A stretch of DNA of 64,000 nucleotides from Trichocoleus sp. GTDB taxonomy: Bacteria; Cyanobacteriota; Cyanobacteriia; Elainellales; Elainellaceae. Below the pieces are notes generated by a model, which saw only the letters and a list, made by a program, of their open reading frames with translations, had not been told where the DNA came from and did not search any database. This document shows, in pieces, positions 57,230 through 63,106 of this stretch (its first letter is position 1; every line of letters starts with the position of its first letter). The position numbers and the translations under genes are program-made. The stretch spans positions 124,001 to 188,000 of the forward strand of contig DATNQD010000071.1 in NCBI GenBank assembly GCA_036702865.1, read 5' to 3'.

Positions 57230-57928
57230 TCATGAACTGATGGTCACTCGCTGCTTCAGTAATTGGCTGTTTTGATTGAGCGTTTGCTGAACGCTAATCA
57301 GCTGTGCCATTTGCTGTTTCGCATTTTCTGCTTGCTTCTTGAAGTTAATTTTGCGTTCCAGGGCAGCCCGCGCTAAATCTTCTCTGCCTTGCTTGAGTGC
57401 TTGCTTCGCGACCCGCTCCCAGGTGTTCATTTCGAGTTGTGCCTGGTTGTACTGCGATTGCAATTGCGATTGAGCCAGCGACACGTTGTCAAAGGCATTG
57501 CCTAAAAGCTGCATTGCCGTAACAGCATCACCTCCTTGTGCGGCTTCATCAATCAAGCGACGATCGAGCGATTGCAGTTGGGAAAGATCGAGTCCATAGT
57601 CGATGAGCTGCCGACTCTCATTTCTGCCCGTTTTACACCAATTAGCAAAATGTTCACAATTGTTCGTGAGCAGGTTATATTGTCTTTCGCCTAATCGGCT
57701 TTCTGCCCGTTCAATCACTACATCTGGGATAAAGGCGATCGGCTGTTGCTTTGTGTAGACGGGTGTCCCTCTCGCAAATGCCTCCATTGTCGTGCGAGTA
57801 ATCACCGCGTCATTGCCTTTGTGGTAGTGGATCACTGTGCCATCACCGCAGTCAATCCCATGATGCTCATAGACACCCTCCACACTCATTAGGGGGCGCA
57901 TAACATAGATTTGATCGCCTCTTGCCAT
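57230..57928 (-). CDS. LRAT/NC-domain protein fused to a PspA-like coiled coil
   Basis: 232 residues from the ATG at 57928 (MARGDQIYVMRP), where similarity begins; the frame is open 22 codons further upstream. Residues 1-115 are an LRAT-like (NlpC/P60 circular-permutation) domain: GDQIYVMR, VYEHHGIDCGDGTVIHYHKG with the catalytic His, and LLTNNCEHFANWCKTG with the catalytic Cys. The C-terminal 110 residues are a coiled coil whose core (TWERVAKQALKQGREDLARA, ALERKINFKKQAE) closely follows the PspA/Vipp1 pattern A-x-x-A-L-x-x-G-x-E-D-L-A-R-x-A-L. That suggests membrane or lipid binding by the coil and acyl transfer or hydrolysis by the LRAT part. The function is unknown and the fusion is uncommon in my experience. 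Confidence 0.78.
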   Translation of the reverse strand: MARGDQIYVMRPLMSVEGVYEHHGIDCGDGTVIHYHKGNDAVITRTTMEAFARGTPVYTKQQPIAFIPDVVIERAESRLGERQYNLLTNNCEHFANWCKTGRNESRQLIDYGLDLSQLQSLDRRLIDEAAQGGDAVTAMQLLGNAFDNVSLAQSQLQSQYNQAQLEMNTWERVAKQALKQGREDLARAALERKINFKKQAENAKQQMAQLISVQQTLNQNSQLLKQRVTISS

Positions 57929-58099
57929 AAGTCGAAACCGAAGAACGCTGCTGATCTTGATCCTGCCATGAGAACTAGGAGATTTGTTCTGCAAGAAGAG
58001 ATAGTGATTGTAACCAGAAAAAAGGTGGACAAGATGCCCACCGTAAGAGAGTTTCAGGAGAAGGTAATATCTGTCTTAGATCGAACGAACCAAAATCGA

Positions 58100-60250
58100 C
58101 TAAACGCCGATCGCTGTACTTAAAGAAGAGCCAAAAGAAGAGCCAACCAAATTTAAGCCCAGTGCAGTCGCCGCTCCAGAGCAATAAGAGCATTTGCACT
58201 TCGGCTTTACTGCCTGCCCATAAGCAGAGACAGTGGATTGCGGACTACCTGCCGGACTCAGAATAGACTGCGAGAGGGTAAAAGAATCAGTTGCGCCATA
58301 ATTCACATTCCAGCCAACATCCCGTAGGGAAGCAAGCGTCACCTGGCTGAGCGGCATTTTCACATTTGCCCCTTCCGCATAAGGCGTGAGAAGTTCATCA
58401 CCAAATTTGGCTTCATCCCAATGTCCCATTGCTCCTGCTTCTAAGGGAATTGCTGTTGGTGTATAAGTTCCAAGCAGCTCACCATAAGCTTTTCCAGCGT
58501 AGGTGTTGGCATTGTAGGTGTTGCTGGTGCGGCTAACCAGGCTGCGTCCTTGCTTCTCCCAAACTGTACCAATTCCCAGAACATGGGCAAATTCATGAAT
58601 CAGTAAGGTCTTGAGATAGGTCGGGTCGCTGTTATAGGAACTGCTGTAGCTGGTGTTGAGGCGAACCGTTCCCGTTGTCGGCATCCATTTCCCCGTGGCA
58701 TCGGTTGTGCCCGATCGATTGGTCGCCGCGGCAAGCCAGTCTTGGGGAGCTGCAACCCCGACCACATCAATTGCCAGATTATGAGGACCGTTAAACGTGC
58801 TGGAGGTAACGACATCCTCCCAGAATTTTGCGGCTTCACTGACTGCACTCCGAACGCCCGAATTAAGTGTACTCAGACCATCTCCATAGTTCAGCTGGAT
58901 GGAGAATTTGCGATCGTCGCTTGCAGCAGGCGTGAAGTTGGTGTTCACCGTATAGTTAATCGTCTGATTCCCAAAGCCTAAAACCTCAACCAGATAATTG
59001 CCTGACGACAGGAATCGACGGATCGATTCATTGGTGCTGCCCCACTCCGGTGCCCAAGCTATAATTTCGCCTTGATCGAGCGTGCCGTTGTTGTTTTTGT
59101 CTTGAATCAGCCGGACATCCGCATCTCCAGTTAAGCCTGTGAGATTTGCAGTAAACACACCCGATTGATTGACGCTAAACCGATAGAAATCTTGATCCGT
59201 GGAAGTTACCTGACCTGTGCGCGAGAAAGCCGCAGACTGAGACTCAGCCGAACCGATCGAGTTGCCAGGATCACCACTGGATGAACCGGGATTGCTAGAA
59301 GGCGTGGGGCTGGGAGTTGGAGTAACAACGGAGGTAGAACTACCACCGCCCGATGAAAGATCAAGCGTATATTCAGCTTTAGAGCCATCAAAAGCCGTTA
59401 CTCGAGCAAAATAGGTTCCGGCATTCAGCGATTTAGCAATAGACTCAGCGACCTGCCCATCATTATTCGATCGCCCAACTTCTGCACCAGAACTATCGAG
59501 TAGCTGTAAATCAGCATCACCACGCAGCTTGCCTAGGCCCAGGTTCACGGCGCCGTTCTCAGAGAGGGTAAAGCGATAGACATCACTGGTATCTCGACTA
59601 TCCACTTTGCCCTTGTAGCTGCGCTTTGTCCGGCTGAGGTTGCCAGCATCTAGAGCAGAGGAAGTACTGTTTCCTGCATCTGGGGCGCTGCCGTTCCCTT
59701 TCAGCTTCAGGGTGTAGTTGGCATTCGCACTATCTTTGGCAGAAACTCGAATAAAGTAGGTTCCAGAACGGAGATTTCCTTGAATTTTTTCATCCCGTCG
59801 ATCGCTGCGCGTTGATCGAGAGACTTCAGCCCCATTTGCTTTAAGAATTTGCAGGTCAGCATTCGCGCTCAGTTGGCTTAAGGAAAGCTTGAACCGCAGC
59901 GATCGAGACAGGCTGAATTGAAAATAGTTACTAGGGCTAGAGGTGCCAACTGTGCCATTCCAGGTGTAGTCTGACTTGCCGCTTAAATCGCCGAGTTTGC
60001 TAGCAGTCGCCTGACTTGTGCCGATGAAATTAGCATTCGCCCCTGGGCTAACAGGCTGAATTCGGAGTCCGCTACCGTCTTGAATGAAGCGAAACTTGTT
60101 ACGAGAACTAGAACTCCGAACCATCCGGAAATTTGATTGAGTATCGGTAGGATTCCGGGAAAGCGCTTGATCGAGCTGTAGTTGTGGGCGGGATAGGCTG
60201 TCCAGGCGACCCTGATTCCAGGATTGCCCAGCGGCAGACTGATATGACAT
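58100..60250 (-). CDS. leishmanolysin-like (M8) metalloprotease with PPC repeats
   Basis: 716 residues from the ATG at 60250, with AGGAGG immediately upstream. No signal peptide (MSYQSAAGQSWNQGRLD). Four PPC-type beta domains cover residues about 75-460 (YFQFSLSRSLRFKLSLSQLS; VYRFTLSENGAVNLGLGKLR; FYRFSVNQSGVFTANLTGLT). The protease follows, with zinc motif HEFAHVLGIGTVW near residue 550 and the third His in GAMGHWDEAKFGDELLTPY, as in the M8 family. The last 45 residues contain KPKCKCSYCSG and a Gly/Ser-rich end. The domain content fits an extracellular enzyme, so a non-Sec (type 1) export route is likely; no exporter gene is adjacent. Confidence 0.88.
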   Translation of the reverse strand: MSYQSAAGQSWNQGRLDSLSRPQLQLDQALSRNPTDTQSNFRMVRSSSSRNKFRFIQDGSGLRIQPVSPGANANFIGTSQATASKLGDLSGKSDYTWNGTVGTSSPSNYFQFSLSRSLRFKLSLSQLSANADLQILKANGAEVSRSTRSDRRDEKIQGNLRSGTYFIRVSAKDSANANYTLKLKGNGSAPDAGNSTSSALDAGNLSRTKRSYKGKVDSRDTSDVYRFTLSENGAVNLGLGKLRGDADLQLLDSSGAEVGRSNNDGQVAESIAKSLNAGTYFARVTAFDGSKAEYTLDLSSGGGSSTSVVTPTPSPTPSSNPGSSSGDPGNSIGSAESQSAAFSRTGQVTSTDQDFYRFSVNQSGVFTANLTGLTGDADVRLIQDKNNNGTLDQGEIIAWAPEWGSTNESIRRFLSSGNYLVEVLGFGNQTINYTVNTNFTPAASDDRKFSIQLNYGDGLSTLNSGVRSAVSEAAKFWEDVVTSSTFNGPHNLAIDVVGVAAPQDWLAAATNRSGTTDATGKWMPTTGTVRLNTSYSSSYNSDPTYLKTLLIHEFAHVLGIGTVWEKQGRSLVSRTSNTYNANTYAGKAYGELLGTYTPTAIPLEAGAMGHWDEAKFGDELLTPYAEGANVKMPLSQVTLASLRDVGWNVNYGATDSFTLSQSILSPAGSPQSTVSAYGQAVKPKCKCSYCSGAATALGLNLVGSSFGSSLSTAIGV

Positions 60251-60577: not shown

Positions 60578-63106
60578 TCAGTCCGCAGAATCTGCCGAAT
60601 CAGAGAGCATCCAGTAAACTGCCCAAATTGCCATTGCTCGGAGATAGTGACTGGCTCGAAATGTGCCAACTGCTGTAATTGCTTCTGGAGTACGAAACTG
60701 CAATCCGTTGTCATAGATCTGCCGCACAACTGCCTCTGTTAATTGCAACGCCTCCGATCGCAGCCCCATTTGAATCAAGAAAGCTGCCAGCCCGAAGTTG
60801 ATCCCTGTCCAAACCTCTAGCGGATGCGTGTCATTCAGGTTTACTGGCGATCCGTCCGGTCGAACTCCATTTGCAGCACCAAGTAAGTCAGTGATTCCAG
60901 CAGCCGATTTCTCAGAAAATTTGCCTGGAAAAGCCTGAGTAACAAACCGATTAAAATTGATGAAACAGGCATCATACACGGTCTTCAAGGCAACCTGAGC
61001 ACAATCGATCGGCACAACGTCCGGCAATTTTAGCAACCGTGCATAAAACTGACCGCAAAGCTGATCCGCCATCACCACATCCGAGCCACTGCCGCTATCA
61101 AGGCGATAGTATTGCCCATTCCAGAGCTTTTCTTGATACAGCGGACGAGCCTGCTCTAACCAGGTTTGGTACAGCGCGATCGACTGAGCATAGGCAGCTA
61201 AATTCCCCGCTTCTCCGTCTCTCTGGCTCTCCTCCCCTTCCAAAATCTGCCCGATCGCCACGGCTGCTTCCAATGCAGCAATCCACAAGCCACCACAGTA
61301 GGCACTTACCCCTTGAAGCCGCCAGTCATCAAAGGTTTGATCAGGTGCGCCAGAATTTTCGGGAATGCCATCACCATCTTCATCAAAGGTTTTCAGGTAA
61401 TCGATCGTGGCGGTAATTGCTGACCAGCATTCTTTCAAGAATGGAATATCTGTCCGTCCGGTAAAGACAAAATCTCGGTAGACTTGCAGCACAAAATCAG
61501 AGCCGAGATCTTTCCAGAGATTACAGTCTTGATAGCTGGTGTAATTTGTTTTCTCCCAAACATGCTCATTGGGTGCACCTAGATCATGCGGTGTTGCATT
61601 CGCAATTTTTCGTTGAGCGATCGGGCTTTCAACGCCTTGCGTATAGTAGTAGCCAATGACGCGAGGGGTGTTATCAGCGGCAGGAATGGCACGGGCAAAG
61701 GCACGTAAAACCGCTTTATCCAGTTCTGGAAACAGGAGCAAGAGGGCAAAAGACCCGTAGAGCCGCACATCCAGGCTTTCATACCAGCGATAGTCCAAGC
61801 ATTCCAGCACTGCAAATTGTCCAACCGGATCTCGATCGGTTGCTGCACTCCAGAGCGTTCCGCCGCCCGTCAAATCATAGAGTTCATTAAATAGTGCCAT
61901 CTTCAACCAATCCGGCAAATCGGCGCGATCGAGGATTGGCTGCTGCCACTGCTGGATCTGCTGTTGCCAATGGGCGTAGTTTTGTAAGGCAGTTTGGGCG
62001 ATCGCTGACGCATTTTGACCATTGCGACCAAAGAAATCGGTATAGCGACGAAAATAAGTGACTCCTTCAGCAAATTCCGTCACCGGAAAATCCCAGGCGA
62101 GCACAAAAGGAATTTGGCGCGTTTCCCCTGGCGCTAAAGTAAACCGCAGCGCTACGGCAGTCCCAATTCTTTCTGATTCCCCTGCAGGCATTTCATCTGC
62201 AACATTCGCCAGCGAGCCATCTTGAGCAAACGTTTCCCAAATCTCTGCTCCATCCCCGATCGGATTCCAGCGCGTCTGATAAAACAGTTCTGCATTAGCT
62301 GGATCAGTCAAAATCGCCCACTGTCCATCTCCCTCCTCAGGGCTGCCTGCGTCTTCTCTCCTGCCCATTAAACAACCAGAACCCAGCCACCGATTCCAGT
62401 TTCCCTGGCTTTCTCCTAAACGCGGCTGATATTCATAGACCGGGCTACCATCATCGCGCACCTTCACTTCCGGCAACTTTGAGGCATTGGTAAACCAACC
62501 CACCATATTTTCCCAGGTGAGCATAATGCTGAGCGTTAATGGACGATCGCTCGGATTCTTTGCCGTCCATAAAAACACTGCCACCGGGTAGCTCGTCTCC
62601 TGATAGTTCTCTGCCCAAATTGGCGAAAACTGATCACAGGTTAATTCCGCCTGAAACACATTTCGGTAAACAAACCAGCTTCGCGGATACAGCGCGTAAT
62701 AATCTCCCCGGTTCCCGTCGCCAGACTGACCTGCCGCGTCTTCACTGCTTGCGTCTTTACTGCTTGGATACCACTGCCAACTCGCCAACGTTCCATCTGC
62801 CGGAGCTTCCGTACAGAGTGCATAAGCCTGAGCCGGACGATCGCCCCCCTGCTCAAAGATGCTGAATTGACAGGCAGGCATGGTTTGAAATAAATGCTCC
62901 CCGCCGTCAAGGTGCCAAAGATTAAAGTCGCCCCGCGAAGACCGCCCAAAGCAACCTGCCCCAAACCCACCCAGCGGCATCCCATGCCAGGGACCATCAT
63001 CTATATTGCTGGCATATCGAACGGTGTAGGGCTGCTGCCACCCCAAGCCGATCGCTCGACTCCAGGCACAGGTGGGGATTTGGGAGAGAAGATTGAGATT
63101 TTTCAT
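60578..63106 (-). CDS. GH116 beta-glucosidase (GBA2-like non-lysosomal glucosylceramidase family)
   Basis: 842 residues. The N-terminal beta-sandwich has GPWHGMPLGGFGAGCFGRSS followed by RGDFNLWHLDGGEH. The alpha/alpha-toroid catalytic domain has the nucleophile Glu in GQFAVLECLDYRWYESLDVR and the acid/base Asp in GAPDQTFDDWRLQGVSAYCG, matching the GBA2 block. The terminal part NLNDTHPLEVWTGINFGLAAF is also conserved. Members hydrolyse beta-glucosides, glucocerebroside in animals, aryl- or glycolipid glucosides in bacteria. No signal peptide is seen, so it is probably cytoplasmic. It could act on glucosylated glycolipids; the actual substrate is unknown. Confidence 0.93.
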   Translation of the reverse strand: MKNLNLLSQIPTCAWSRAIGLGWQQPYTVRYASNIDDGPWHGMPLGGFGAGCFGRSSRGDFNLWHLDGGEHLFQTMPACQFSIFEQGGDRPAQAYALCTEAPADGTLASWQWYPSSKDASSEDAAGQSGDGNRGDYYALYPRSWFVYRNVFQAELTCDQFSPIWAENYQETSYPVAVFLWTAKNPSDRPLTLSIMLTWENMVGWFTNASKLPEVKVRDDGSPVYEYQPRLGESQGNWNRWLGSGCLMGRREDAGSPEEGDGQWAILTDPANAELFYQTRWNPIGDGAEIWETFAQDGSLANVADEMPAGESERIGTAVALRFTLAPGETRQIPFVLAWDFPVTEFAEGVTYFRRYTDFFGRNGQNASAIAQTALQNYAHWQQQIQQWQQPILDRADLPDWLKMALFNELYDLTGGGTLWSAATDRDPVGQFAVLECLDYRWYESLDVRLYGSFALLLLFPELDKAVLRAFARAIPAADNTPRVIGYYYTQGVESPIAQRKIANATPHDLGAPNEHVWEKTNYTSYQDCNLWKDLGSDFVLQVYRDFVFTGRTDIPFLKECWSAITATIDYLKTFDEDGDGIPENSGAPDQTFDDWRLQGVSAYCGGLWIAALEAAVAIGQILEGEESQRDGEAGNLAAYAQSIALYQTWLEQARPLYQEKLWNGQYYRLDSGSGSDVVMADQLCGQFYARLLKLPDVVPIDCAQVALKTVYDACFINFNRFVTQAFPGKFSEKSAAGITDLLGAANGVRPDGSPVNLNDTHPLEVWTGINFGLAAFLIQMGLRSEALQLTEAVVRQIYDNGLQFRTPEAITAVGTFRASHYLRAMAIWAVYWMLSDSADSAD

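Follow-up and report, generated by a model that had tools for sequence, protein, structure and literature searches.

What does a cyanobacterium use an enzyme for when its tail resembles a membrane-repair protein, and does the protease gene next door belong to it? Both questions are raised by a 64,000-nucleotide stretch of Trichocoleus sp. DNA (contig DATNQD010000071.1, positions 124,001 to 188,000; hereafter the window), in which a minus-strand gene joins an LRAT-type domain to a PspA/Vipp1-like coil. An earlier note, made from the letters alone, had proposed a membrane-targeted lipid acyl enzyme of new architecture beside a leaderless M8 metalloprotease. As judged from sequence comparisons, the protein—here called LRAT-PspA—is a real and conserved enzyme–hairpin fusion with a predicted enzyme activity. 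Its gene and domains are as follows:

57230..57928, minus strand: LRAT-PspA fusion gene, 232 amino acids, ATG at 57928; the same methionine starts the alignment of its relatives
57620..57928, minus strand: LRAT/PLAAT-type catalytic domain, residues 1-103 (Pfam PF04970, residues 2-103)
57233..57526, minus strand: PspA/Vipp1-type alpha1-alpha2 helical hairpin, residues 135-232 (Pfam PF04012, residues 134-226), with its tip at about 170-193

The program-listed open reading frame extends from 57230 to 57994 with a TTG start; because the alignment of relatives begins at ATG 57928, we set the start there and not at the TTG. Both domains of the resulting protein exceed their Pfam thresholds: LRAT (PF04970) with 87.6 bits against a curated cut-off of 24.3 (E about 1e-24), and PspA_IM30 (PF04012) with 38.9 bits against a gathering cut-off of 33.9 (E 8e-10 to 9.6e-10), the latter match spanning positions 34-126 of the 220 in the profile. 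The LRAT domain carries a His-His-Cys set (H22, H34, and C91, the last within NNCEHF) that is invariant in the family described below, which bears out the proposed His/Cys catalytic domain. The profile search of the C terminus against PspA/IM30, set beforehand as the refutation test, likewise returned similarity, and the coil is a genuine member of the PspA/Vipp1 family. A generic coiled coil was ruled out by the score above the gathering cut-off and by the 77 of 77 aligned proteins that match PspA_IM30 at E<=0.01.

These 77 rows comprise the window protein and 76 relatives. A scan with one genome per species found 244 relative-encoding stretches, of which the best 80, all cyanobacterial, were retained; four (L079, L091, L092, L095) failed tests for start, stop, or length and were excluded from the alignment. 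At E<=0.01, both LRAT and PspA_IM30 are found in every aligned protein, as expected of rows chosen as top hits with the full-length query; the count shows a coherent family, not the frequency of the hairpin among LRAT proteins. Residues H22, H23, H34, N90, C91, E92, and H93 are invariant across the alignment, and F94 is present in 75 of the 77. A transmembrane-like segment was not seen in the window protein (highest 19-residue Kyte-Doolittle mean [KD19] 0.65), nor in the 76 relatives of this main subtype, whose highest KD19 values range from 0.19 to 1.41 with none reaching 1.6.

Within the class, 127 of 291 sampled genomes match at 1e-12, LRAT-only relatives counted too, and on this number a universal thylakoid gene was rejected. 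In a phylum-wide sample, the LRAT model matches 75 of 292 genomes at E<=0.001, 70 of them above its cut-off, and another class of the phylum has weak and partial LRAT matches only (2 of 18 genomes). An LRAT match is present in Synechococcus elongatus, too. Spread by plasmids or phages was also considered and rejected: 30 plasmid and two phage records match and do hold LRAT-only relatives, and none covers 80% of the protein.

LRAT proteins lacking the hairpin occur in one family of small-genome cyanobacteria. Locus L158 (3057-9397) has the row tig-clpP-clpX-LRAT-dnaX, with domains assigned by Pfam, and L159 and L161-L163 have a similar row, judged by gene sizes. In the LRAT proteins of L165 (5124-5942) and L168 (4917-5789), long glycine-rich hydrophobic C-terminal tails replace the hairpin.

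An AlphaFold model built with the 77-row alignment (mean pLDDT 80, pTM 0.51) consists of a globular domain that ends near residue 100, a linker of low prediction quality, and two helices (135-179 and 183-231). When compared by VIA-align, the modelled N-terminal domain superimposes on PLAAT3/4 with Z 13.8-14.0 and a root-mean-square deviation of 1.5-2.0 over 94-96 residues, and Foldseek matches it to 7zom (E 1.6e-5); the model thus predicts the permuted NlpC/P60 fold of LRAT/PLAAT proteins. The hairpin aligns with residues 32-133 of Vipp1 7o3w at 28% identity, with a Z of 10.6 that does not exceed that of unrelated helical rows; CorA, chemoreceptors, and other unrelated helical bundles also score around 10. 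Its structure alone is therefore not diagnostic, and the PspA likeness rests on the sequence profile as the better evidence: searched as a family profile, the best hit is Vipp1 8qbr (residues 24-128, E 2.7e-11).

An alpha1-alpha2 hairpin with a W-A-A-L...LAR-AL tip is common to the fusion, Vipp1/IM30, and PspA, and the latter two—the bacterial ESCRT-III proteins—possess in addition alpha0 and alpha3-alpha5, which the fusion lacks, together with the polymer-building alpha5 swap. No alpha0 is found in the window protein, whose LRAT domain begins at residue 2 and whose PspA match is confined to positions 34-126 of the profile; nor are alpha4-alpha5, as the chain stops where Vipp1 has residue 133. 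The "PspA-like coil" of the earlier note hence stands as to family and falls short as to extent, the coil being only an ESCRT-III-type alpha1-alpha2 hairpin. Vipp1 rings and filaments are abolished when alpha5 and alpha6 are removed (PMC8281802), and given its truncation, the fusion protein alone is not expected to form PspA-like polymers.

Conservation of the hairpin is concentrated in its tip (W170-K193), where 12 of 24 columns are at least 90% identical among the 77 fusions versus 2 of 70 in the shaft; the tip limits were chosen after viewing the conservation profile and the rows are related, making the Fisher p of 4e-7 descriptive only. In 18 cyanobacterial PspA/Vipp1 hairpins, 15 of 24 tip and 28 of 70 shaft columns are conserved. 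In Vipp1 polymers, the tip is the part that accepts helix alpha5; having the acceptor but no donor would equip a fusion for docking on Vipp1/PspA polymers. LRAT-PspA possibly docks in this way, although conservation of the tip may instead serve the packing of the turn itself.

A conserved tip on a variable shaft would also fit a contact with some other protein. On this account, the coil is only an arm for dimerisation or regulation and attaches the enzyme to a soluble protein partner, not to membranes, much as the E. coli PspA hairpin docks on PspF. The FHA genes found near many relatives (see below) suggest signalling, and the charge of the hairpin is not conserved, both in keeping with such an arm; its mean net charge is nevertheless similar in the two groups (+2.6 in the 77 fusions versus +2.4 in the 18 PspA/Vipp1 proteins), in line with an electrostatic attachment to membranes in many members, though not in all. 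What makes a purely soluble role unlikely in our eyes is that the same type of hairpin binds membranes by itself: alpha1-3 of Synechocystis IM30/Vipp1, assayed as an isolated hairpin, has an apparent KD of 3.2 uM on dioleoylphosphatidylglycerol (DOPG) liposomes, and membrane binding in vivo is reported as well (PMC12636044). Moreover, the nearest enzyme relatives of known activity act on lipids (PMC4624172).

Those relatives are the PLAAT/HRASLS proteins and LRAT (PF04970), with which the fusion has the domain, the catalytic residues, the NCEHF motif, and the fold in common. In the main stretch of similarity, the cysteine of NCEHF aligns with C91, and H22 and H34 align, weakly (a 3.9-bit stretch), with H23 and H35 of HRASLS2; the catalytic set of PLAAT3 is Cys113-His23-His35 (PMC4624172). 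PLAATs, except HRASLS5, have a C-terminal transmembrane segment (PMC4624172), in whose place the main subtype of LRAT-PspA carries the PspA hairpin.

Likeness to these enzymes does not by itself fix the substrate, and the LRAT-like domain could act on proteins—as an amidase, a peptidase, or a protein/lipoprotein acyltransferase—and not on bulk lipid. Peptidases and amidases occur in the NlpC/P60 superfamily (PMC3142127), and HRASLS and NlpC are also taken up in a paper reporting an S. aureus two-component lipoprotein N-acyltransferase (PMC7387801). We regard a protein substrate as improbable: the solved sequence relatives of the domain are PLAAT/HRASLS proteins, and the main subtype has no transmembrane-like segment, which would put periplasmic lipoproteins out of reach.

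The architecture was not new, as the earlier note had supposed: fusions of this kind are common in cyanobacteria, and Ravi et al. 2024 mention, in one sentence, a PspA_IM30-NlpC/P60 fusion (AFZ52345.1) predicted to modify phosphatidylcholine (PMC11237479), that is, the same two superfamilies in one chain as in the 77 of 77 proteins aligned here. Because LRAT-like proteins form one of the four families of the NlpC/P60 superfamily (PMC3142127), AFZ52345.1 very probably has the architecture of LRAT-PspA, presumably including its domain order and hairpin extent. Neither LRAT nor FHA occurs in the main text of PMC11237479. Among the matches listed from the openly licensed PMC literature, we saw no further paper on this fusion, and none combining "Lecithin retinol acyltransferase" with "PspA".

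In a second LRAT-PspA subtype (L037, L038, L039, L040, L170, L171), the two domains are separated by a hydrophobic, glycine-rich insertion, with KD19 values of 1.77-1.97 in the four rows measured. The gene of this subtype adjoins an alpha/beta hydrolase gene in L037 (by Pfam) and in L039 and L040 (by similarity), and further neighbours are clpX (L039, L040) and a PlsC-like acyltransferase gene (L038). We built a hairpin tree from 56 rows, namely the window protein, 26 of the 76 main-subtype relatives (every third), six members of the second subtype, 18 PspA/Vipp1 proteins, and five glycine-rich paralogues. All 33 sampled fusions fall on one side versus PspA, Vipp1, and the glycine-rich paralogues with a support of 100/100; this pattern in a tree of 86 columns, with little resolution and an unknown root, fits a single origin of the fusions. 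The main subtype alone does not form one side of a branch.

The paralogues, from the cyanobacterial loci L179-L183, are PspA/Vipp1-type proteins of 373-384 amino acids in which a long hydrophobic stretch rich in glycine sets alpha0 apart from the hairpin. They form one group in the tree (100/100).

The genes around the fusion were counted in 79 named loci (the retained 80 minus L092), four of which lack an upstream open reading frame. For the Pfam scan, we used the 62 immediate upstream genes on the same strand; neighbours on the opposite strand or of at least 1000 amino acids fall outside this set. The recurrent neighbour of LRAT-PspA is an FHA-domain gene, not a protease. Of the 79 loci, 32 have an FHA-type gene on the same strand upstream of the fusion (28 of 70 among those with more than 1.5 kb of upstream sequence), and within the Pfam set, FHA domains are found in 28 of 62 genes and protein kinase domains in five of 62. 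A frequent row reads 6-phosphogluconolactonase, zinc-ribbon/FHA, FHA or FHA-kinase, LRAT-PspA (domains checked on L060), with the 6-phosphogluconolactonase gene seen in 17 of 79 loci. In 24 loci, the short FHA gene and the fusion gene are separated by a median of 44 bases; the 19 gaps longer than 20 bases were scanned, and none holds a terminator-like site. Searches of the same literature gave no paper that links the FHA domain to LRAT proteins, the one match being an unrelated kidney paper.

In the window itself, a protease gene takes the upstream position:

58100..60250, minus strand: metalloprotease of 716 amino acids with a PPC domain and HExxH, lacking a signal peptide (Pfam PPC 6e-21; ATG behind AGGAGG)
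58024..58042, minus strand: hairpin and subsequent T6 resembling an intrinsic terminator, in the gap between the protease and LRAT-PspA genes (fold z -3.1)

Its placement had been described correctly, upstream on the same strand with a gap of 171 bases to the fusion gene, and "leaderless" agrees with the highest 19-residue Kyte-Doolittle mean of -0.72 in its first 60 residues. The assignment to M8 holds for the motifs (HEFAHVLGIGTVW and, later, AMGHWDE) and fails for the profile: Pfam reports no M8 at E<=1 and only weak M43 and M10 matches, with HExxH and a later His present; NCBIfam lists no M8; and a PDB search gave one chance-level hit (E 0.93).

Same-strand neighbours this close could form one functional pair or operon, all the more as 7 of 32 loci, the window included, have a homologous protease gene in the same orientation upstream of the fusion. 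Across the named loci, the protease is upstream of the fusion in only five of 79 (L065, L066, L068, L071, L079), many genomes keep the fusion gene without it, and a terminator-like hairpin separates the two genes in the window and in L065, albeit in at most one of the four M8 loci scanned. In the region, four terminator-like sites were found versus 3.9 in shuffles, not significant by itself, and a terminator between the two genes is suggestive only. The suggestion that the protease next door matters therefore finds little support; an operon with the protease as main association was rejected on the five of 79 loci, we regard a functional pair as very improbable, and the protease is probably a lineage-limited neighbour outside the LRAT-PspA system.

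The protease ends in a Cys-rich tail (window 58103-58255, minus strand) with CxCxxC followed by a Gly/Leu/Ser-rich end; the tail is similar in L045-L047 and diverged in L057, and a search of the window's own genome revealed no second copy at E<=1. Upstream of the protease lies a GH116 (beta-glucosidase 2-like) gene (60578-63106, minus strand), a family that is the immediate upstream gene of the fusion in four of the 62 named loci scanned.

How, then, might LRAT-PspA work? Taking domain homology, residue conservation, the modelled hairpin fold, and the gene row as established, we infer activity, substrate, membrane binding, and regulation along the following lines. The protein fairly probably works in the cytoplasm as a thiol acyltransferase/phospholipase and is directed to membranes that are anionic or damaged, so that the membrane-targeted lipid acyl enzyme of the earlier note is plausible. 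As an LRAT/PLAAT-type thiol enzyme of the cytoplasm, it would act as a phospholipase A and/or acyltransferase: an acyl chain of a glycerolipid would be transferred to C91 to form a thioester, H22 serving as the base and H34 orienting H22, and the chain would then be handed to water or to an acceptor lipid. To our knowledge, cyanobacteria do not make phosphatidylcholine, and phosphatidylglycerol (PG), galactolipids, or sulfolipid are therefore likelier substrates. By means of its alpha1-alpha2 hairpin, the enzyme would reach membrane patches that are anionic or stressed, and acyl chains may be remodelled or cleared at sites of Vipp1/PspA action. The FHA and FHA-kinase genes upstream in many lineages suggest control by Ser/Thr phosphorylation signals.

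Several observations speak against this picture. In the VIA-align comparison of the N-terminal domain, the top row (Z 14.3, a tie with the PLAATs) is 8iuf_E7, a subunit of the Euglena respiratory chain and not a lipid enzyme, so the fold alone is no proof of lipid chemistry. The charge of the hairpin varies from -3 to +8 among the 77 fusions, and electrostatic membrane binding may therefore fail for some members. The hairpin of the fusion is also shorter than the assayed IM30 alpha1-3 fragment. The family is patchy, with no match at 1e-12 in 164 of 291 class genomes, and hence not needed for thylakoids generally. Finally, the window itself has no FHA gene upstream of the fusion, so the regulatory idea is drawn from its relatives.

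A more specific version of the membrane-targeted enzyme, which we offer as tentative and rather doubtful, casts LRAT-PspA as a hairpin-only enzyme adaptor of bacterial ESCRT-III that docks on the end or surface of a Vipp1/PspA polymer and, under FHA/kinase control, brings a lipid acyl enzyme to damaged photosynthetic membrane. If true, this would mean an enzyme built into an ESCRT-III polymer. New here are the spread of the fusion, its truncation to the hairpin, the tip-centred conservation, the one-origin signal, and the FHA/kinase gene row. A conserved enzyme with an ESCRT-III hairpin would offer a direct handle on the link between Vipp1/PspA repair and lipid changes, a handle that in cyanobacteria amounts to one gene and one cysteine.

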